DNA of 64,000 nucleotides, taken from NCBI RefSeq assembly GCF_016412875.1, contig NZ_JAEKPD010000007.1, positions 248,001-312,000 of the forward strand, given 5' to 3'. Below are positions 1,879-11,294 of this stretch, piece by piece; position 1 is the first letter of the stretch; each line of letters opens with the position of its first letter. This DNA is from Palleronia pontilimi (GTDB lineage Bacteria; Pseudomonadota; Alphaproteobacteria; Rhodobacterales; Rhodobacteraceae). Under the pieces are notes generated by a model, which was not told the origin of the DNA, made no database searches, and saw only the letters and a list, made by a program, of their open reading frames with translations. A program made the translations under genes and the position numbers.

Positions 1879-3678
1879 ATGCTCGACACCACCCTTACCG
1901 ACCAGACCCAGGAATTCCTCGACCAGTTCGGCGCCGCGCTGGCCCGCGGCGATATCGACGCGGTGCGCGAGATGTTCGTCGAGGATTGCTATTGGCGCGA
2001 CCTGGTCACCTTCACCTGGAACATCAAGACCATGGAGGGCCGCGACCAGGTGGCCGACATGCTCAAGGCGCGGCTGGACGAGGTGAAGCCGTCGCACTGG
2101 ACCCTGCTGGAAGACGAGTTGCCCACCGAAGAGGGCGGCATCGTCACCGCCTGGATCACCTTCGAGACGGACGTGGCGCGCGGCTTCGGCCTGCTGCGCC
2201 TGAAGGACGGCAAGATCTGGACGCTGCTCACCACCATGCAGGAGCTGAAGGGCCACGAGGAACCCAAGGGCTTCGACCGGCCCATGGGCGCCGAGCACGG
2301 CGCCGACAAGGACCGCACCACCTGGCAGGAAGAGCGCGCGCGCGAAGCGGCCGAGCTGGGCTACAAGACACAGCCGCACACCGTCATCATCGGCGGCGGA
2401 CAGGGCGGCATCGCGCTGGGCGCGCGGCTGCGCCAGCTGGGCGTGCCCACCATCATCGTGGAAAAGAACGACCGCCCCGGCGACAGCTGGCGCAAGCGCT
2501 ACAAGTCGCTCTGCCTGCACGACCCGGTCTGGTACGACCATCTGCCCTACATCAAGTTCCCCGAGAACTGGCCCGTCTTCAGCCCCAAGGACAAGATCGG
2601 CGACTGGCTGGAAATGTACACCAAGGTGATGGAGCTGAACTACTGGACCCGCTCCGAGGCCAAGTCGGCCAAGTTCGACGAGGCGACCGGCGAATGGACC
2701 ATCGTCGTGGATCGCGACGGCGAAGAGGTGATCCTGAAGCCCAAGCACCTGGTCATGGCCACCGGCATGTCGGGCAAGATGAACAAGCCCGACTTTCCCG
2801 GCGCCGACCAGTTCAAGGGCGAGATCCAGCATTCCAGCGAGCATCCCGGCCCCGATGCCTACACTGGCAAGAAGGTGGTGGTGATCGGGTCCAACAACTC
2901 GGCCCACGACATCTGCGCCGCGCTTTGGGAGCATGACGCAGACGTGACCATGGTGCAGCGGTCGTCCACCCATATCGTGAAGTCCGACAGCCTGATGGAT
3001 GTGGGCCTGGGCGATCTCTACTCCGAGAAGGCGGTGCGCAACGGCGTGACGACCGAGAAGGCCGACATGATCTTCGCGTCGCTGCCATACAAGATCCTGC
3101 ACGAGTTCCAGATCCCCGTCTACGAGGAGATCGCCAAGCGCGATGCCGATTTCTACAAGGGGCTCGAGGATGCGGGGTTCCAGCACGATTGGGGCGATGA
3201 CGGATCGGGCCTGTTCATGAAATACCTGCGCCGCGGGTCGGGCTATTACATCGACGTGGGCGCGAGCCAGCTGGTCATCGACGGCAAGGTGAAACTGGTG
3301 AACGGCCAGATGAAGGAATTCACCGAGACCGGCGTGCGGCTGGAGGACGGCACCGAGCTCGAGGCCGACCTGGTGGTGCTGGCCACCGGCTACGGGTCGA
3401 TGAACGGCTGGGTCGCGGACCTGATGGGCCAGGACATGGCGGACATGGTCGGAAAGGTCTGGGGCCTGGGGTCCGACACCACCAAGGATCCCGGCCCGTG
3501 GGAAGGCGAGCAGCGCAACATGTGGAAGCCCACGCAGCAGCCGAACCTGTGGTTCCACGGCGGCAACCTGCACCAGTCGCGGCACTATTCGCTGTACCTC
3601 GCGCTGCAGCTGAAGGCGCGCGAGGCGGGACTGCCGACGCCGGTCTACGGGTTGCAGCCGGTGCACCACCTGAGTTGA
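1879..3678 (+). CDS. FAD-dependent flavin-containing monooxygenase with N-terminal NTF2-like domain
   Basis: 599 residues. Residues 1-125 look like an NTF2/SnoaL-type cone (DQFGAALARGDIDAVREMF, then DCYWRDLVTFTW). Residues 165-590 are a flavin monooxygenase: FAD-binding GGGQGG at 172-177 and a second nucleotide site VIGSNNSAHD from 335, with an ATGY motif near the C-terminus. The fusion is a recurring architecture among proteins annotated as NAD(P)/FAD-dependent oxidoreductases; the substrate is unknown. The ATG at 1879 follows a strong GAGAAGGAG Shine-Dalgarno; the reading frame stays open upstream to 1174, but that part lacks any conserved sequence. Flanked on both sides by double-palindrome repeats. 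Confidence 0.9.
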   Translation: MLDTTLTDQTQEFLDQFGAALARGDIDAVREMFVEDCYWRDLVTFTWNIKTMEGRDQVADMLKARLDEVKPSHWTLLEDELPTEEGGIVTAWITFETDVARGFGLLRLKDGKIWTLLTTMQELKGHEEPKGFDRPMGAEHGADKDRTTWQEERAREAAELGYKTQPHTVIIGGGQGGIALGARLRQLGVPTIIVEKNDRPGDSWRKRYKSLCLHDPVWYDHLPYIKFPENWPVFSPKDKIGDWLEMYTKVMELNYWTRSEAKSAKFDEATGEWTIVVDRDGEEVILKPKHLVMATGMSGKMNKPDFPGADQFKGEIQHSSEHPGPDAYTGKKVVVIGSNNSAHDICAALWEHDADVTMVQRSSTHIVKSDSLMDVGLGDLYSEKAVRNGVTTEKADMIFASLPYKILHEFQIPVYEEIAKRDADFYKGLEDAGFQHDWGDDGSGLFMKYLRRGSGYYIDVGASQLVIDGKVKLVNGQMKEFTETGVRLEDGTELEADLVVLATGYGSMNGWVADLMGQDMADMVGKVWGLGSDTTKDPGPWEGEQRNMWKPTQQPNLWFHGGNLHQSRHYSLYLALQLKAREAGLPTPVYGLQPVHHLS

Positions 3679-3804: not shown

Positions 3805-4881
3805 TTACTGGATCGTGGCTTCGCGCTGGGCGGCGATCTCGGCCTCGACCTTTTCCACGGTCGCGGTCATCGCGTCATAGACGGCCTTGCCGCCGTCGAC
3901 GTTCTGGGTGAACCAGTCGTAGACTGGTGCCGCCGCATCCGCGAACATCTGCTTCTGCTCGGGCGTGGGCACATAAAGGTCGCCGCCGCCCTCCTGGAAC
4001 GCCTGGTAGGCGTCGATGGACTTGCGCTTGGGCGACGCGAAGGTGGCCTGTTGCAACTGGTAGAACCCGTCCACGACGATGCGCTTCTGGTCGTCGGTCA
4101 GACCGTTGAACCGCTCGCCATTCATGAACCACAGCGCGCCCATATAGGCGTGGCCGTCCAGCGTCAGGTATTGCAGGCCCGCATCGGGAAACTTCATGCC
4201 CATGATGTCGGTGATGCCGTTCTTCGAGCCCTCGACCACGCCCGTCTGCAGCGAGGTGAAGAGTTCCGGCCACGGGATCGGGGTCGGAGACGCGCCGAGG
4301 GCGCGCGTCAGTTCCTGCGGCAGGTCGGCGACCACGGTGCGGATCTTCAGTCCTTCCAGGTCGGCGGGGGTTTCGATCCGCCGCTGGGTGTTGGCGAAGT
4401 TGCGCCAGCCGCCGGTATTGCCGATGGTCATCAGCTTGATCGCGCCGCCGGAGGTCTCTTCGACCATGTCCTGCATGGTGGTCACGAACTCGGTGCCGTT
4501 CTCCAGCACGCCCTCCGCCACGCGGTCGTTGGCCATCAGGTAGGGCAGGTCCAGCACCTGCACGAAGGGGAAGATGCCGGAGGTCCCGCCCGAGGTCGAC
4601 ACGTAGATGTCGATGGCGCCGTCGGCCACGCCCTGCATGCACTCGGCGCCGTTCGAGCAGAGCTGCGTGCCGATGAACATCTCGACCGCGATGGCGCCGT
4701 TGGAGGCCTGCTCGACGAAGTTCTTGAACACGATCAGGCCGTCGTAATCCTCGTCGTTTTCGTTCGAGTTGGCCGTGGCGCGCAGGGTGATCGTTTCGGT
4801 GTGCTCGGCGGCGAAGGCGGTGACGGCCGTGCCCCCCAGCAGGGCCGCGGACAGCGCGGCGGTGGTCAGGTGTTTCAACAT
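3805..4881 (-). CDS. TRAP transporter substrate-binding protein (DctP family)
   Basis: 358 residues with a Sec signal peptide (MLKHLTTAALSAALLGG, cleavage near AFA-AE). It is the periplasmic solute receptor of a tripartite TRAP importer. The DctP signature is visible: GLKIRTVVADLPQELTRALG carries the conserved arginine that usually salt-bridges an anionic group of the ligand, then TSLQTGVVEGSKNG. It is the last gene of a minus-strand operon that runs from the monooxygenase at 9399 through DctQ and DctM. The ligand is unknown; context suggests a sulfosugar or its glycoside, which is inference. Confidence 0.93.
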   Translation of the reverse strand: MLKHLTTAALSAALLGGTAVTAFAAEHTETITLRATANSNENDEDYDGLIVFKNFVEQASNGAIAVEMFIGTQLCSNGAECMQGVADGAIDIYVSTSGGTSGIFPFVQVLDLPYLMANDRVAEGVLENGTEFVTTMQDMVEETSGGAIKLMTIGNTGGWRNFANTQRRIETPADLEGLKIRTVVADLPQELTRALGASPTPIPWPELFTSLQTGVVEGSKNGITDIMGMKFPDAGLQYLTLDGHAYMGALWFMNGERFNGLTDDQKRIVVDGFYQLQQATFASPKRKSIDAYQAFQEGGGDLYVPTPEQKQMFADAAAPVYDWFTQNVDGGKAVYDAMTATVEKVEAEIAAQREATIQ

Positions 4882-4903
4882 CTGTTCTCTCCCTTGTTGA
4901 TGG

Positions 4904-6193
4904 TCAGTTCGCGAAGCCCGTCAGGCGCGGGATCGTCATGGATAGCGCGGGGATATAGGTGATCAGGAAGATCACCAGCACCTCGACCGCGAGGAAGGGC
5001 AGGATCGCCCGGGAAATCGCTTCGACCCGTTCGCCGCTGACCGACGAGGCCACGAAGAGCACCAGCCCCATGGGCGGCGTGGCCAGCCCCACGGTCAGGT
5101 TCACGGACATGATGATGGCGAAGTGGATCGGATCGACGCCGAGGTCGACGAAGATGGGCCCCAGGATGGGCCCCAGGATGATGATCGCGGGGCCCGCGTC
5201 CAGGAACATGCCCACGGCGAACAGCAGCAGGTTGATGAGGAACAGCAGGATCAGCGGGTTTTCCGACAGCGACAGGATGTAGTCGGCCATGATCTCGGGC
5301 GCGTGGCTGAGCGACACCACCGTCTTGAACGCCATCGCAGCCCCCACCAGCAGCAGCACCACGGCCGAGGTCGTGGCCGAGCGCGACAGCACCTCGCCGA
5401 TTTCCGAGAATTTGAGGGTCCGCATGACGAAGAGCCCGATGAAAAGGGCATAGGCCACGGCGACGGCGGCGGCCTCGGTCGGGGTGAAGATGCCCAGAAG
5501 GATCCCGCCCATGATGATGACGGGGGTCAGCAGCGGGAAGAACGCCTTCAGACTGGCCTGTCCGCGCTCGGCCCACGTGCTTTTCCGGCTGGCGACGGGG
5601 AAATCGTACTTGTCGGCCATGAATTTGATGACGATCATCAACCCGACGCCGACCAGCGCACCGGGCACGATGCCCGCCAGGAACAGCGCGGCGACCGACT
5701 CGCCCATGACGTAGGCATAGATGATCATGATGCCCGAGGGCGGGATGATCGGGCCGATGACGGAACTGGCAGCGGTGATGGCGGCGGCGAACTTGCGGGT
5801 ATAGCCCTGACGCTCCATCGCCGGGATCAACATCGAGCCGAGCGCGCTGGTATCGGCCACGGCCGAGCCCGACAGCCCCGCGAACAGCATCGAGCTCAGC
5901 ACGTTCACGTGCGCCAGCCCGCCGCGCAGGTGTCCCATGAGCGCCTGAGAGAACTCGACCAGCCGCGCGGTGATGCCGCCCTTGTTCATCAGCTCGCCCG
6001 CCAGCATGAAGAACGGGATCGCCATCAGCGGGAAGCTGTCCATGCCGTTATAGACATTGCGATAGAGCAGGGTGATGTCGCGCTCTTGCCCGGCCATCCA
6101 CAGCAGGATTCCGGGGGCTGCCAGCAGGCCGAAGAAGACGGGCAGGCCCAGCACCAGGAAGATCAGGAAAACGGGCAGGAACCAGATCAGCAT
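4904..6193 (-). CDS. TRAP transporter large permease (DctM family)
   Basis: 429 residues, very hydrophobic, about 12 transmembrane segments. This is the ion-coupled transport subunit of the TRAP system. Typical motifs are PLMAIPFFMLAGELM, GLSGSAVADTSALGSMLIP and SSVIGPIIPPSGIMI. Its start is one base after the dctQ stop and its stop is 22 bases from dctP, so the three form one transcription unit. Transport is presumably Na+-driven, as known for the family. Confidence 0.95.
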   Translation of the reverse strand: MLIWFLPVFLIFLVLGLPVFFGLLAAPGILLWMAGQERDITLLYRNVYNGMDSFPLMAIPFFMLAGELMNKGGITARLVEFSQALMGHLRGGLAHVNVLSSMLFAGLSGSAVADTSALGSMLIPAMERQGYTRKFAAAITAASSVIGPIIPPSGIMIIYAYVMGESVAALFLAGIVPGALVGVGLMIVIKFMADKYDFPVASRKSTWAERGQASLKAFFPLLTPVIIMGGILLGIFTPTEAAAVAVAYALFIGLFVMRTLKFSEIGEVLSRSATTSAVVLLLVGAAMAFKTVVSLSHAPEIMADYILSLSENPLILLFLINLLLFAVGMFLDAGPAIIILGPILGPIFVDLGVDPIHFAIIMSVNLTVGLATPPMGLVLFVASSVSGERVEAISRAILPFLAVEVLVIFLITYIPALSMTIPRLTGFAN

Positions 6194-6194
6194 G

Positions 6195-6776
6195 TCATTC
6201 CGCCATGATTTCTTCTTCGGCGGGCGCGATCTCTTTCAGGTCCTCGGCGCCCAGAAGCGTCAGGATGTTGCGCAGGATCAGCTCGATATTGACGATCAGC
6301 ATGAGCACGACACCGACAAGCAGGCTGGCCATCATCCACGACCGCGGGATGCGGTACCAGCCGTCGGGCAGCGGCAGATACAGCGACGCGGTGGCGAAGC
6401 GACCGCCGAAGCCCGTGACCTCGGACCAGCCGATGCGGACGGCGAAGCCCAGCACCACGGCTGCGATGGCCAGAAGGACCAGCGATAGGGCGGCGGCCAG
6501 CACGCGCGGCAGCAGCACCAGGATCGTGTCGATGGCCACGAAACCGCCCCGGCGATAGGCCATGGGCGCCATCAGGCCGGTCATCCACAGCATCATGAAG
6601 CGCGCGGCCTCGTCGGGCCAGGGCAGGGCGTTGTTAAGCACGTAGCGAAAGAAGACCTGGACCAGGATCGCGGCGACCATCAGCGCGATGGCGACGATGG
6701 AGACGATGCGGCCCACCGGCAACACCAGGTCGTTCCATGTCTGGAAAGGCCACAAAAGGCCCTTCAGGACGCGCAT
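6195..6776 (-). CDS. TRAP transporter small permease (DctQ family)
   Basis: 193 residues with four predicted membrane helices. It forms the membrane complex with DctM. The FRYVLNNALPWPDEAARFMMLW segment around residues 44-65 corresponds to the conserved family region joining helices 1 and 2 (WPDE motif). It follows the flavin reductase by 70 bases on the same strand and so probably belongs to the same operon as the upstream enzymes. Confidence 0.92.
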   Translation of the reverse strand: MRVLKGLLWPFQTWNDLVLPVGRIVSIVAIALMVAAILVQVFFRYVLNNALPWPDEAARFMMLWMTGLMAPMAYRRGGFVAIDTILVLLPRVLAAALSLVLLAIAAVVLGFAVRIGWSEVTGFGGRFATASLYLPLPDGWYRIPRSWMMASLLVGVVLMLIVNIELILRNILTLLGAEDLKEIAPAEEEIMAE

Positions 6777-6846
6777 GCGCCGCTCCTCCCTATGTCGCCC
6801 CCGCGCCCCGTTGATCGCGGCTGCGTCGTCTTCTCACCTTTGCAGG

Positions 6847-7347
6847 TCAGTCCAGCCTTGTGAACTGCCCATATTTTCCGCCCGCGAAGATCAGCGGAGC
6901 GCCATCCCGGTGCACGGCGCTGAGCACCCGGCCGATGACGATGACGTGGTCGCCCGCGTCGTGGATCGTCTCGGTCGTGCAGTGGAACCGCGCCAGGCAA
7001 TCCTCGATCAGGGGCGTGCCGTCGTCGTGGCGCCACCAGTCGAGCTTGTCGAAGGCGTCGCCTTCCTTGACGAAGGTATCGGCCAGCGCGACCTGGTCGT
7101 CGGCCGCCACGTGGATGGCGAAATTGTCGCATTCGGTGAAGGGCTTGAACCGGCTCGACGACTTGGCGGGCGCCCACAGCACCAGCGGCGGATCCAGCGA
7201 GACCGACGCGAAACTGTTGGCGGTGATGCCCAGCGGCCCGGTATCGGCCCCCGTCGTGATGACCGTGACGCCCGTGGCGAAGCGGCCCAGGGCCTGCCTG
7301 AGCGCGCGTCCGTCCTGCGGGGAAACCTGCGTGGCGACCTTGTCCAT
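6847..7347 (-). CDS. Flavin reductase (HpaC/SmoA-like)
   Basis: 166 residues, a FMN-binding split-barrel NAD(P)H:flavin reductase. The motifs ALGRFATGVTVITT, LGITANSFASVSLDPPL and the late GKYGQF are typical. Such enzymes deliver reduced flavin to two-component monooxygenases. Only 4 bases separate it from the aldo/keto reductase, and the flavin-dependent monooxygenase is the first gene of the same operon, so its partner is very likely that enzyme (inference). In the sulfo-SMO pathway SmoA has this role. Confidence 0.9.
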   Translation of the reverse strand: MDKVATQVSPQDGRALRQALGRFATGVTVITTGADTGPLGITANSFASVSLDPPLVLWAPAKSSSRFKPFTECDNFAIHVAADDQVALADTFVKEGDAFDKLDWWRHDDGTPLIEDCLARFHCTTETIHDAGDHVIVIGRVLSAVHRDGAPLIFAGGKYGQFTRLD

Positions 7348-7351
7348 CCGC

Positions 7352-8245
7352 TCAGGGTACTTCCCGGCCGATGGCGTAGGAATAAAGCTCGAACCAGTCC
7401 TGGCGGCTGATCTTCACCTTCCGGGCGTCGCCGATGGATTTGATGCGGTCCAGGTTGTTGGTGCCCATGACGGGCAGGATGCGGGCGGGATGGGCCAGCA
7501 GCCAGGCGACGGCGACGGCGGCCATGTCGCAGCCCTCGCGCTTGGCGAAATCGGAAAGGTTGGTGCGCAGCTTGGTGTGGCCGCCCTTGCCGGTCATCAG
7601 CGTGCCGCCGCCAAGGGGCGACCAGGCCATGGGCGCCGCGCCGTATTCCTGGATGAAGGCCAGGTCGCCGTTGGTGAAGGGGTCGGTGTGGCCCAGCGAC
7701 ATCTCGATCTGGTTGGCGACCAGCTTGGTCTGCATGGCCGATTGCAGCAGCGTCCAGTCGTGCCGCTTGAAGTTCGACACGCCCACGGCGCGCACCTTGC
7801 CCGCCTTAACGGCGGCATCCAGCGCGGCGCCGGTGTCGTGGTGGTCCATGAAGGGATCGGGGCGGTGGATCAGCAGCAGGTCGATCTCGTCGATGCCCAT
7901 GAGCTTCAGCGACTGGTCGATGGACGCTTCGATATGCGCGCTAGAGGTGTCGTAATGCTTGACCCGCGCGCCCTTGTGCCGCCCGGCGGGGGCCACGATG
8001 CCGCATTTCGTCACGATCTCGATGCGCTGGCGCAGATCCTTGGTCAGGGCCTTGCCCATGATCTCTTCCGCCATGTAGCCGCCGTAGATGTCGGCCTGGT
8101 CCAGCGTGGTGATGCCCTGGTCGATGCAGGCCTCGATCTTGTCGCGGACATGGGCGGCGCTGGTGTCGGAATCGTCGCCGAGCCGCCACATCCCATAGAC
8201 GATCCGGCTGAGGCTCAGCCCCTCTTGCAGTTCCACGCGATCCAT
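7352..8245 (-). CDS. Aldo/keto reductase (possible 6-oxo-glucose reductase, SmoB-like)
   Basis: 297 residues, a TIM-barrel NAD(P)H oxidoreductase. The catalytic tetrad can be placed at D52, Y57, K80 and H127 (LLLIHRPDP). The ATG at 8243-8245 shares its A with the TGA of the preceding monooxygenase (TGATG), indicating translational coupling; the frame is open further upstream but that region overlaps the monooxygenase. In the known sulfo-SMO pathway an aldo/keto reductase reduces the 6-oxo-sugar left after desulfonation to glucose, which would fit here, but substrate specificity cannot be read from the sequence. Confidence 0.9.
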   Translation of the reverse strand: MDRVELQEGLSLSRIVYGMWRLGDDSDTSAAHVRDKIEACIDQGITTLDQADIYGGYMAEEIMGKALTKDLRQRIEIVTKCGIVAPAGRHKGARVKHYDTSSAHIEASIDQSLKLMGIDEIDLLLIHRPDPFMDHHDTGAALDAAVKAGKVRAVGVSNFKRHDWTLLQSAMQTKLVANQIEMSLGHTDPFTNGDLAFIQEYGAAPMAWSPLGGGTLMTGKGGHTKLRTNLSDFAKREGCDMAAVAVAWLLAHPARILPVMGTNNLDRIKSIGDARKVKISRQDWFELYSYAIGREVP

Positions 8246-9399
8246 CAGCGGCGTTCTCCTGCCCCGAGCGGGGTCTTCGGTGTCGCCGCGGGCACGCGTC
8301 CATAGGCGTGCGGCAGCGAACAGGTTTTCAAATGCGGCAGGATCCGGGACCCGACCGATCGGCACTCATCAAGGTGAGGGTAGCCCGAGAAGATGAAAGC
8401 GCGAATCCCCATTTCGCGATAGGCCTCGATCTCGCTCAGGACCTGGTCGGTGCTGCCCACCAGTGCGGCGCCGCAGCCCGAGCGCGCGCGCCCGATCCCG
8501 GTCCACAGATGCGGCTCGACATAGCCGAACTGGTCGGCCAGGTCGCGGGCGCGGGCCTGGTGGCTGACACCCAGGCTGGTGCTGTCATGGGCACGGTCTC
8601 GGATCAGCGCGCCGTATTCGTCGTCCAGCTTGCTGACCAGGTGCTCGGCGTATTCCTTCGCCTCGGCCTCGGTATCGCGCACGATCATGTGGACGCGCAG
8701 GCCGTAATCCAGCGTTCTGTCATATTCCTCAGCGACTTGATGGACGGCTTTCATGCGCTCGGCGATCTGGTCCTTGGGCTCGGGCCACATGAGATAGACG
8801 TCGCAATGCTCGCCGCAGAGATCCAGCGCGGGGGGCGAGTAGCCGCCGAAGTAGAGCAGCGGCCCGCCGGTCTGGTAGGGCTTCGCGGGATCCGTCGTAA
8901 TCCCTTTGAAATCATATACCTGTCCGGTGAAGTTGATCTCGTCCCGCGTCCAGGCCTGTTTCAGGATCTCGACCACCTCGCGCGAGCGCTGGTAGCGGAA
9001 GGCGCTGTCGGCTTTTTCGCCCGGGAAGTCGGACGAGATCACGTTCAGCGTCAGTCGACCTTCCAGCATGTGATCCAGCGTCGCCACCGTGCGCGCCAGC
9101 ATGATCGGCTGCATCTCGCCGCAGCGGATGGCGGCCAGCATGTTGATGCGGTCCGTGATCGGCGCGCCGCCCGCCACAAAGCTGAGCGTGTCCTGGCCCA
9201 CCTGGTAGGACGACGGGCACAGGATGTTGCGGAAGCCCTGCGCCTCGGCCTCTTTCAGGATCGCGCTGCAATGGGACCAGCTGGACCGCAGATTCCCGTC
9301 GGGCATGCCGAGATATTCGTAATCATCCGAACAGAGCGCCGCGAACCACGACACTTCGATCGCGTCCAGATCGGCCGATGTGATGGGAACGATGCTCAT
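8245..9399 (-). CDS. SsuD-like FMNH2-dependent monooxygenase (candidate sulfoquinovose monooxygenase)
   Basis: 384 residues of the bacterial-luciferase-like superfamily, closest in pattern to alkanesulfonate monooxygenases. Diagnostic stretches are [27 protein letters not shown] and, near residue 300, [18 protein letters not shown], which parallels the SsuD glycine-rich active-site loop. SsuD-type enzymes cleave C-S bonds of sulfonates using FMNH2 and O2. First gene of the operon with the aldo/keto and flavin reductases, the trio SmoC-SmoB-SmoA. The start at 9399 leaves a short divergent promoter region to the GntR gene. Alternatives are methanesulfonate- or dimethylsulfone-type substrates. 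Confidence 0.88.
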
Positions 9400-9457
9400 G
9401 CGCGCGACCCTTTCAGACGGTGCATTTTCAGCTTGCCTAGCATGGCCCCGAATGTGC

Positions 9458-9474
9458 ATCAATCGTATATCAAT
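9458..9474. promoter_or_regulatory. Possible operator: ATCAAT direct repeat in the divergent promoter region
   Basis: ATCAAT occurs at 9458-9463 and 9469-9474, an 11-base period or one helical turn, in an AT-rich island of otherwise GC-rich DNA between the monooxygenase operon (-) and the GntR gene (+). A minus-strand -35 like TTGATG lies within it. It could be the GntR binding site; this is inference from position only. If the regulator starts at 9442 instead of 9490 it would lie in coding sequence. Confidence 0.3.
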
Positions 9475-9489
9475 TCCGTCAAGGCCGCC

Positions 9490-10191
9490 ATGCCCCCGCC
9501 ACCGACCGCGCCGCTTTACCGGCAGATCACCGACCTTCTGGTGCGCCAGATCGCGTCCGGCACGTTGATCGCCGGCGAACGTCTGCCGCCCGAACGCGAG
9601 CTTGCGCAAACCCACCGGGTCGCCGTGGGCACCGTGCGGAAATCACTGCGGGAATTGCAGGCGCAGGGGCTGATCGAGCGGCGGCACGGCTCGGGCAATT
9701 ACGTGCGGGGGGTGCGCGATATCGGCGGGCTGTACGGCTTCTTCCGGCTCGAGCCGCCCGGCGGCGAGGGGCGGCCGGATGCGCGGCTGATCGCATTCGA
9801 TCTGCGGCCGAAGCCAAGTGACGCGCCGGACTTCGGCGAGGATCCCCAGGCGTTTCGCATCAGGCGCCTGCGCAGCCTGGACGGCACTGCCGCCGCACTC
9901 GAGGAAATCTGGCTGGACCGGGCCCGCGGGTCCGGTCTGACGCGCGATGTGATCACACCGTCGCTCTACAACACCTATCGCACGCACCTGTCCCTGCGCA
10001 TCGTGCGGGTCGAAGACCGGATCGGCGTGGCCGGCTTGCCCGATTGGGCGGATGAGCGTCTTGCGCAACCGGTTGGAACGCTCATGGGACACGTGGAGCG
10101 CCTGGCCTGGGCGCAGGATGGCACGCCCTGCGAATTTTCGCGAACCTGGTTCGATTCGGACAAGGTTCGCTACGTGAATCGGCTCAAATAG
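9490..10191 (+). CDS. GntR-family transcriptional regulator (HutC-type)
   Basis: 233 residues from ATG 9490 (AAGG at 9481-9484), or 249 from ATG 9442; I prefer 9490 because the conserved region starts PLYRQITDLLVRQIASG. The winged helix follows: GERLPPERELAQTHRVAVG then TVRKSLRELQAQGLIER and GSGNYV. The C-terminal half is a UTRA-like ligand domain. It is divergent to the monooxygenase-TRAP operon and 8 bases before the Gfo/Idh/MocA gene, so it probably controls both sides in response to a sugar-like inducer (inference). Confidence 0.88.
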   Translation: MPPPPTAPLYRQITDLLVRQIASGTLIAGERLPPERELAQTHRVAVGTVRKSLRELQAQGLIERRHGSGNYVRGVRDIGGLYGFFRLEPPGGEGRPDARLIAFDLRPKPSDAPDFGEDPQAFRIRRLRSLDGTAAALEEIWLDRARGSGLTRDVITPSLYNTYRTHLSLRIVRVEDRIGVAGLPDWADERLAQPVGTLMGHVERLAWAQDGTPCEFSRTWFDSDKVRYVNRLK

Positions 10192-10199
10192 GAATATGA

Positions 10200-11294
10200 A
10201 TGCCTGAAATCGTAAATTACGGGATCATCGGGTGCGGGATGATGGGGCAGGAGCACATGCGCAATATCGCCCTGTTGCCCGACGCCCGCGTCGTCGCGGT
10301 GGTCGAACCCGACAGCCAGCAGGCAGCCCTGGCGCGCGCGCTGGCCCCGCAGGCGCAGCTCTGTCCCGATATCGACGCCCTGCTGGCCGTCGCGCCGCTG
10401 GATTGCCTGGTCGTGGCGTCGCCCAACAACCTGCACGTGGACCAGATCGCGCAGATCGCCGCCCGCCGCGCGCTGCCCATGCTGATGGAAAAACCGCTCT
10501 TCACGGCGCCGGACCAGGCGCGGTCCCTGTTGCAGATCGACTATTCCGCGCCGATCTGGGTGGCGATGGAATACCGCTACATGCCCCCGATCCAGGCGCT
10601 GATCGAGCAGGTAGACGCGGCCACCGGCGGTCCGGTCATGCTGACGATCCGCGAGCACCGCTATCCGTTCCTTCAAAAGGTCGGCGACTGGAACCGGTTC
10701 AACGACCGTTCGGGCGGCACGCTGGTGGAAAAATGCTGTCATTTCTTCGATCTCATGCGCCTGATCCTGCGCGCCGAGCCGGTGCGGGTCATGGCCAGTG
10801 CGTCGCAAGCGGTCAATCACCGCGACGAAGTGATCGACGGACGCCGCCCGGACATCTGGGACAACGGCTATGTCATCGTCGATTTCGACAACGGCGCGCG
10901 CGCGATGCTGGAATTGTGCATGTTCGCCGAGGGCGCGCGGTTCCAGGAAGAGATCAGCGTGGTCGGTCCCAAGGGCAAGATCGAGGCGCATGTGCCGGGA
11001 CCGGGCCGCTTCTGGCCCACGCATCTGGGCGCGCCGCCCGTGGCGCAGGTCATCATCAGCCCGCGCAGTCCGCGCGGCCCGCAAGCCATTGAAGTTCCGG
11101 TGGATCCGACGCTTCTGGATGCGGGTGACCACAACGGCTCGACCTTCTACCAGCATAGCCGTTTCCGCGAGGTCGTGCTGGGGCGCGGCCCGGTCGAAGT
11201 GTCGTTGCAGGACGGCGCGATCGCGGTCGAAATGGGGCTTGCCGCGCAGGACTCCGCCCTGACGGGACAGGCCGTGACGTTGCCGCGCCGCTGA
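10200..11294 (+). CDS. Gfo/Idh/MocA-family NAD-binding protein (candidate NAD-dependent sulfoquinovosidase or sugar dehydrogenase)
   Basis: 364 residues. The N-terminal Rossmann fold shows GIIGCGMMGQEH, AVVEPD and the MEKPL motif near residue 97; the C-terminal half has GGTLVEKCCHFFDLMRL. Most relatives are sugar or inositol dehydrogenases. As I recall, NAD-dependent sulfoquinovosidases of family GH188 also have this fold, and one would supply the glycosidase missing from the adjacent monooxygenase operon. That assignment is inference and needs phylogeny. Co-transcribed with the GntR gene, 8 bases apart. Confidence 0.85.
   Translation: MPEIVNYGIIGCGMMGQEHMRNIALLPDARVVAVVEPDSQQAALARALAPQAQLCPDIDALLAVAPLDCLVVASPNNLHVDQIAQIAARRALPMLMEKPLFTAPDQARSLLQIDYSAPIWVAMEYRYMPPIQALIEQVDAATGGPVMLTIREHRYPFLQKVGDWNRFNDRSGGTLVEKCCHFFDLMRLILRAEPVRVMASASQAVNHRDEVIDGRRPDIWDNGYVIVDFDNGARAMLELCMFAEGARFQEEISVVGPKGKIEAHVPGPGRFWPTHLGAPPVAQVIISPRSPRGPQAIEVPVDPTLLDAGDHNGSTFYQHSRFREVVLGRGPVEVSLQDGAIAVEMGLAAQDSALTGQAVTLPRR

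Follow-up and report, generated by a model that had tools for sequence, protein, structure and literature searches.

The 64,000-nucleotide stretch of Palleronia pontilimi DNA analysed here (the window) contains, at positions 3805-11294, an eight-gene locus which, judging from the homology of its products, is very probably a sulfo-SMO (sulfoquinovose monooxygenase; also sulfo-ASMO) system for using sulfoquinovose (SQ) and its glycosides, among them sulfoquinovosylglycerol (SQGro). Its tripartite ATP-independent periplasmic (TRAP) transporter, DctPQM, would be a dedicated importer of SQ or SQ glycosides and an interchangeable module passed between sulfo-SMO clusters and clusters of a sulfo-EMP2-like type (sulfoglycolytic Embden-Meyerhof-Parnas; sometimes with sulfopyruvate decarboxylase), each pathway keeping its own GH188 lineage; we give this reading a probability of roughly 0.7. 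If it is true, DctPQM would add another kind of SQ importer to the ATP-binding cassette (ABC) type. In plants and algae, SQ is the sulfur-containing sugar of the membranes. Passages of PMC10755693 put its production at about 10 billion tons a year, and the literature searched says little on its uptake by marine bacteria. A TRAP importer beside GH188 in two pathways would allow SQ use to be recognised in genomes and metagenomes whatever the pathway, and would offer one directly testable protein (DctP) plus a regulator site.

TRAP importer and its cargo

The three components of the importer are encoded on the minus strand: dctP (3805-4881) encodes the substrate-binding protein, a probable binder of SQ or sulfoquinovosides, dctM (4904-6193) the large permease and dctQ (6195-6776) the small permease. 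All three match the expected families (PF03480, 1.8e-52; PF06808, 4.6e-120, with TIGR00786 also above its cut-off; and PF04290, 2.5e-21, respectively), which bears out the TRAP importer of the original prediction as far as family is concerned, and the N-terminus of DctP is hydrophobic and resembles, by eye, a signal peptide.

A scan of named genomes, in which the best 80 of at least 575 stretches encoding a SmoC relative were kept and which is biased toward near relatives, shows SmoB in all 80 loci, GH188 in 79, a GntR regulator in 79 and SmoA in 64. DctQ, DctM and DctP are found together in 44 of them, with two more interrupted by contig ends, which makes TRAP the importer that these relatives most often have. 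Since the same block recurs in dozens of other genomes, its gene order is not due to chance; this is the outcome of the neighbourhood survey that had been proposed for the locus. The family sample contains 295 genomes, nearly one per genus, with E-value cut-offs of 1e-100 for SmoC, 1e-90 for GH188 and 1e-100 for the DctP orthologue; in most of them the best six first-look candidates alone were scored for DctP and GH188. SmoC is found in 124 genomes, GH188 in 144 and the DctP orthologue in 102. The 124 SmoC-positive genomes show GH188 within 10 kb in 114 cases and the DctP orthologue within 10 kb in 72, and on another contig in four more. Ninety-nine of the 102 genomes with the DctP orthologue also hold SmoC or GH188, and 26 have no SmoC; in 20 of these 26, GH188 is located within 10 kb of DctP.

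Seventeen of these 20 SmoC-less genomes were fetched for gene-content comparison, and 15 (L132-L144, L147 and L148) show at least two of three genes encoding an isomerase, a PfkB kinase and a LacD/DeoC aldolase, the isomerase being present in all 15. Five isomerases were scanned, and all hit NF048012, the model for SQ isomerase, with scores that fall short of its cut-off. Compared with the genes of L137, and as lower bounds, since each retrieved stretch was cut at a preset position, the 15 clusters contain an SSADH-like (succinate-semialdehyde dehydrogenase) aldehyde dehydrogenase in at least eight, a 2-hydroxyacid dehydrogenase in at least 10 and an aldose epimerase in at least seven. This gene set points to a sulfo-EMP2-like route. 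Genes for sulfopyruvate decarboxylase are present in at least four clusters (L135, L140, L147 and L148), where one alpha and one beta subunit were scanned and both are above cut-off; this suggests that the same cells go on to degrade sulfolactate. Like the window, the sulfo-EMP2-like clusters show the same DctPQM subfamily together with GH188 and belong to the same family of bacteria; unlike it, they contain, in place of SmoABC, genes for an SQ-isomerase-like protein, a PfkB kinase and a LacD-type aldolase. Eleven of the 15 have a DeoR-type regulator, and their GH188 forms a clade of its own. A gene encoding a MauG-like di-haem protein is also found in 12 of the 15.

The histories of the two shared proteins were compared in trees, all of which, here and below, are quick searches with support from the Shimodaira-Hasegawa-like approximate likelihood ratio test only. 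The GH188 tree sorts by pathway with a single change, and a 100*-supported branch sets the sulfo-EMP2-like GH188 apart from the others, whereas the DctP tree mixes the pathways, with 11 label changes in tree 1 (71 rows, 66 labelled by pathway) and nine in tree 2 (63 rows). In tree 2 long or odd rows were dropped (L142, L143, L145, L146, L149, L150, L151 and L124), and the mixing persisted. A single EMP2 clade of DctP is disfavoured by the approximately unbiased test, with p values of 0.005 (tree 1) and 0.0025 (tree 2). Median identity to the DctP of the window is 73% in both pathway groups (n=15 and n=50), while median identity to its GH188 is 52% in the sulfo-EMP2-like group (n=15) and 66% in the sulfo-SMO group (n=86). 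Because DctP mixes across pathways while GH188 splits, the simplest reading is that both pathways have one cargo in common, which would be SQ or an SQ glycoside. The solved proteins nearest to DctP are remote (best 4p47, 1.1e-34) and give no firm indication of cargo, and a list of residues separating SQ-linked DctP from 4p47 and 4nq8, drawn up with rows L143 and L150 omitted, is descriptive only.

Several observations weigh against a dedicated and exchangeable SQ importer. At the cut-offs applied, three genomes show a DctP orthologue with neither SmoC nor GH188; in two of them SmoA or SmoB is still next to DctP, and in the third, whose DctP is 51% identical, neither is. The pathway labels on the DctP tree are still partly clustered, as few changes being reached in six of 500 shuffles for tree 1 and in 4-5 of 500 for tree 2, and the starred branches force only two changes, so that the number of module exchanges is uncertain. 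The predicted structure of DctP has a mean pLDDT (predicted local distance difference test) of 72.7, and the value drops below 50 at residues 158-161, 180-187 and 200-233, where the ligand is likely to bind. Among the 80 named loci, 20 show an ABC sugar importer nearby, called by likeness to one of two reference sets, and 14 show neither importer type; the 14 were searched in part, many of the open reading frames picked to seek other importers in TRAP-less loci being in the wrong frame, and at least L017 and L069 are explained by contig ends. TRAP is therefore not obligatory for sulfo-SMO loci.

These importer counts, which imply that other importers may serve, would also suit a locus with sulfo-SMO enzymes whose TRAP takes up some other compound, or SQ in its free form only, SQ glycosides entering by another route, and TRAP binders often take carboxylates. 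Such a division is nevertheless unlikely: the same DctP subfamily is located beside GH188 in SmoC-less clusters, the DctP tree mixes pathways whose common step is the use of SQ or its glycosides, and the GH188 of the window shows no export signal by eye and starts directly with its Rossmann motif, so that the enzyme is probably cytoplasmic and the glycoside would have to be imported.

Gfo/Idh/MocA protein and GH188

The gene at 10200-11294 (plus strand) encodes a protein of the Gfo/Idh/MocA fold which, as its solved relatives and conserved residues indicate, is a GH188 NAD+-dependent sulfoquinovosidase (sqgA). Its matches among solved chains are 8zn9 (6e-156), named only 'Oxidoreductase, putative', 8qc3 (3.5e-113; 51.7% identity over 356 positions) and 8qc2 (3.8e-112); according to PMC10755693 the last two are the GH188 prototypes ArSqgA and FlSqgA. 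The SqgA residues K107, Y136, R166, L170, K172, E189, H193 and H321 are all kept (8/8) at one constant numbering offset, and they include the published sulfonate triad, R166, L170 and K172; Glu163 of PMC10755693 did not map at this offset and was left out of the comparison. The first seven of these residues are invariant in 80 of 80 aligned GH188 proteins (the window and 79 loci; H321 uncounted). The 'different glycosidase' foreseen for the locus is thus the Gfo/Idh/MocA protein itself. As a search for GH31 (PF01055) in the source genome, an assembly of 3.72 Mb in 64 contigs, was empty, and positive in six of 14 control genomes, GH188 is probably the only sulfoquinovosidase of the two known families in this genome.

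Monooxygenase, reductases and pathway assignment

The gene smoC (8245-9399, minus strand) encodes a luciferase-like monooxygenase, by homology an FMNH2-dependent SQ monooxygenase. In full-length alignment it shows 80.7% identity to 7oh2 and 79.2% to 7olf, which are presumably SmoC from Agrobacterium and Rhizobium, reportedly solved by Sharma et al. in 2022, and it is distant from E. coli SsuD (32.2%) and from 7jv3 (32.7%), presumably MsuD. The closest named SmoC among the best 80 loci is that of Palleronia salina (90%). In a quick tree of 94 rows, 7oh2 and 7olf nest within the Rhodobacterales SmoC clade to which the window protein belongs, and plasmid proteins of Roseicitreum and Rhizobium sp. 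SL42 join the two chains in a 100*-supported group; SsuD and MsuD are outside. Branches leading to the Emticicia and Novosphingobium rows are long and the placement of these rows is unsure, and L017 and L069 carry no importer label. The smoB gene (7352-8245, minus strand) encodes an aldo/keto reductase which would convert 6-dehydroglucose to glucose; its best solved relative is 7bby (1.8e-122), presumably SmoB and reportedly from the same study. It tells against these assignments that 7oh2, 7olf and 7bby carry generic names in the PDB. The flavin reductase gene (6847-7347, minus strand) shows a Flavin_Reduct domain (PF01613, 1.1e-38), its best NCBIfam match being FerA, below cut-off; its product appears to be of SmoA type and would supply reduced flavin.

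A general alkanesulfonate or methanesulfonate assimilation operon of SsuD/MsuD type, with TRAP for short sulfonates, could draw on the place of the monooxygenase in the SsuD superfamily (TIGR03565, 5.7e-70), on the label of 7olf, methanesulfonate sulfonatase, and on the distant relationship of DctP to the solved isethionate TRAP binder 8t9t (1.1e-25), but it is very improbable, given that the monooxygenase groups with 7olf and 7oh2 (79-81% identity, against 32-33% to SsuD and 7jv3), scores 236 bits against an SsuD equivalog cut-off of 518, and is encoded in a locus with GH188, which has sulfosugar-binding residues, and with an aldo/keto reductase, neither of which has a known role in alkanesulfonate use. 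An SsuD or MsuD function is accordingly rejected by identity, equivalog score and tree. The SfnG equivalog score is likewise low (137 bits; cut-off 383), and the clustering with SsuD or MsuD that was considered at the outset is not seen in the tree, from which SfnG was absent. The sulfo-SMO reading of the original prediction is upheld.

The enzymes are identified by close homology, SqgA also by its conserved named residues, and the chemistry proposed is that published for relatives. In the periplasm DctP would bind the sugar, an anion, which DctQM would then carry in; SqgA would cleave SQ glycosides through transient NAD+ oxidation at C3. SmoA would generate reduced flavin, with which, and with O2, SmoC would cut the C-S bond to give sulfite and 6-dehydroglucose, the latter being reduced to glucose by SmoB. 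GntR may govern both divergent operons via a direct-repeat element over the smoC promoter.

Some related loci show only part of this gene set. SmoCB with no SmoA homologue found in the stretch examined is present in L004, L007, L020, L036 and L049, and in the Roseicyclus loci L022, L028, L034, L046, L052, L058 and L065; several SmoA-less loci have an ABC sugar importer nearby in place of TRAP, and in all of them reduced flavin would need another source. Loci L146, L149, L151 and L152 keep TRAP and SmoA and/or SmoB, and no SmoC was found there, an absence not explained by runs of N. In L146 (8700-9100) about 266 bases are located between SmoB and GntR, and the operator-like element described below is still present. 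On the Emticicia plasmid (L128, 6489-9563) a SmoC relative (53%) adjoins a sodium/solute symporter, and the annotated stretch, whose table is incomplete, lists no aldo/keto reductase or Gfo/Idh/MocA gene.

Regulatory region

The region between smoC and the GntR gene contains, at 9454-9473 on the minus strand, the direct-repeat element TTGATNNACNATTGATNNAC, a putative GntR operator with the conserved pattern TTGAT-N6-TTGAT, which overlaps a -35-like box (TTGATG, 9457-9462) of the smoC operon. A putative -10 element, TAGGCA (9434-9439, minus strand), lies 17 bases from this box, which coincides with the second repeat, and would be part of the promoter, as its sigma-70-like spacing and its conservation in the aligned consensus (TAcGCA) suggest. 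The repeat is found in 81 of 88 homologous SmoC-GntR regions and in three of 17600 shuffled ones, and a stricter form in 52 of 88; these regions are related, so that the count measures conservation and not independent events. Both forms are missing in seven of the 88, which counts against the proposed regulation. The exact element pattern occurs once in the assembly, at the SmoC-GntR region. In L145, which contains GntR, GH188 and TRAP and no SmoC, the element stands between GntR and DctQ and so links the regulator with the TRAP genes. The regulator itself (PF00392 and PF07702) is encoded at 9490-10191 on the plus strand, with an alternative in-frame ATG at 9442; the start at 9490 is more likely because the conserved promoter/operator-like element occupies 9454-9473.

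Plasmid-borne clusters and known systems

Twenty-nine plasmid records matched and nine were opened: six follow the window in their order of GH188, SmoCBA and TRAP, and the other three are Marinovum, with an ABC importer, and Emticicia and Novosphingobium, with other layouts. A putative sulfate exporter is annotated in or beside the cluster in four of the seven opened records of the SmoC clade (L123, L124, L125 and L127). The source genome shows one match to PF03601, the family taken for such exporters, on another contig.

The sulfo-SMO cluster of Agrobacterium tumefaciens is reportedly the subject of Sharma et al. in 2022, and growth of Roseobacter on SQ that of Liu et al. in 2023; the sulfoquinovosidase of the Agrobacterium cluster is presumably a GH31 enzyme. 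As described in passages of PMC9594981 and PMC12890257, this cluster shares with the window an SsuD-type SQ monooxygenase, a flavin reductase, an aldo/keto reductase and the same proposed chemistry, C-S cleavage to sulfite and 6-dehydroglucose and then glucose, but for SQGro it uses a characterised transporter of the ABC type, and it has a sulfoquinovosidase, where the window shows TRAP and GH188. The window fits the marine Roseobacter-clade sulfo-SMO clusters, in which, according to the relevant passages of Kaur et al. (2023, PMC10755693), GH188 is near-universal and GH31 is lacking; as the same passages indicate, the sulfo-SMO core with a GH188 partner is already published and is not new. 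The importer is not treated in these passages. The idea of a variant locus therefore stands for its layout, TRAP with another glycosidase, and not for its rarity, the TRAP arrangement being common and the window showing a widespread layout. Literature searches combining SQ with TRAP, DctP or tripartite found no TRAP importer for SQ among the papers covered, though an earlier description may exist: the word 'trap' occurs zero times in PMC13372026, PMC9594981 and PMC12890257, its passages in PMC11659671 and PMC10504371 concern other matters, and two of its three occurrences in PMC12421959 are both about instruments. Added here are TRAP as the commonest importer among relatives, one DctP subfamily in two pathways, and the TTGAT-N6-TTGAT element.

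Gene map and neighbouring gene

All eight genes have uninterrupted reading frames at the stated positions, and each is above the curated cut-off for its expected Pfam family, which confirms the minus-strand operon and the divergent GntR and Gfo/Idh/MocA genes as first described. The gaps within the operon range from -1 base, the overlap of the aldo/keto reductase and monooxygenase genes, to 70 bases between dctQ and the flavin reductase gene, also as first given. Facing the dctP end, at 1879-3678 on the plus strand, is a gene encoding a 599-amino-acid flavin-monooxygenase-like protein with an N-terminal SnoaL-like domain; no counterpart was found in 21 kb of L002, and a stretch 78% identical to it is located beyond dctP in L005 (Palleronia rufa).

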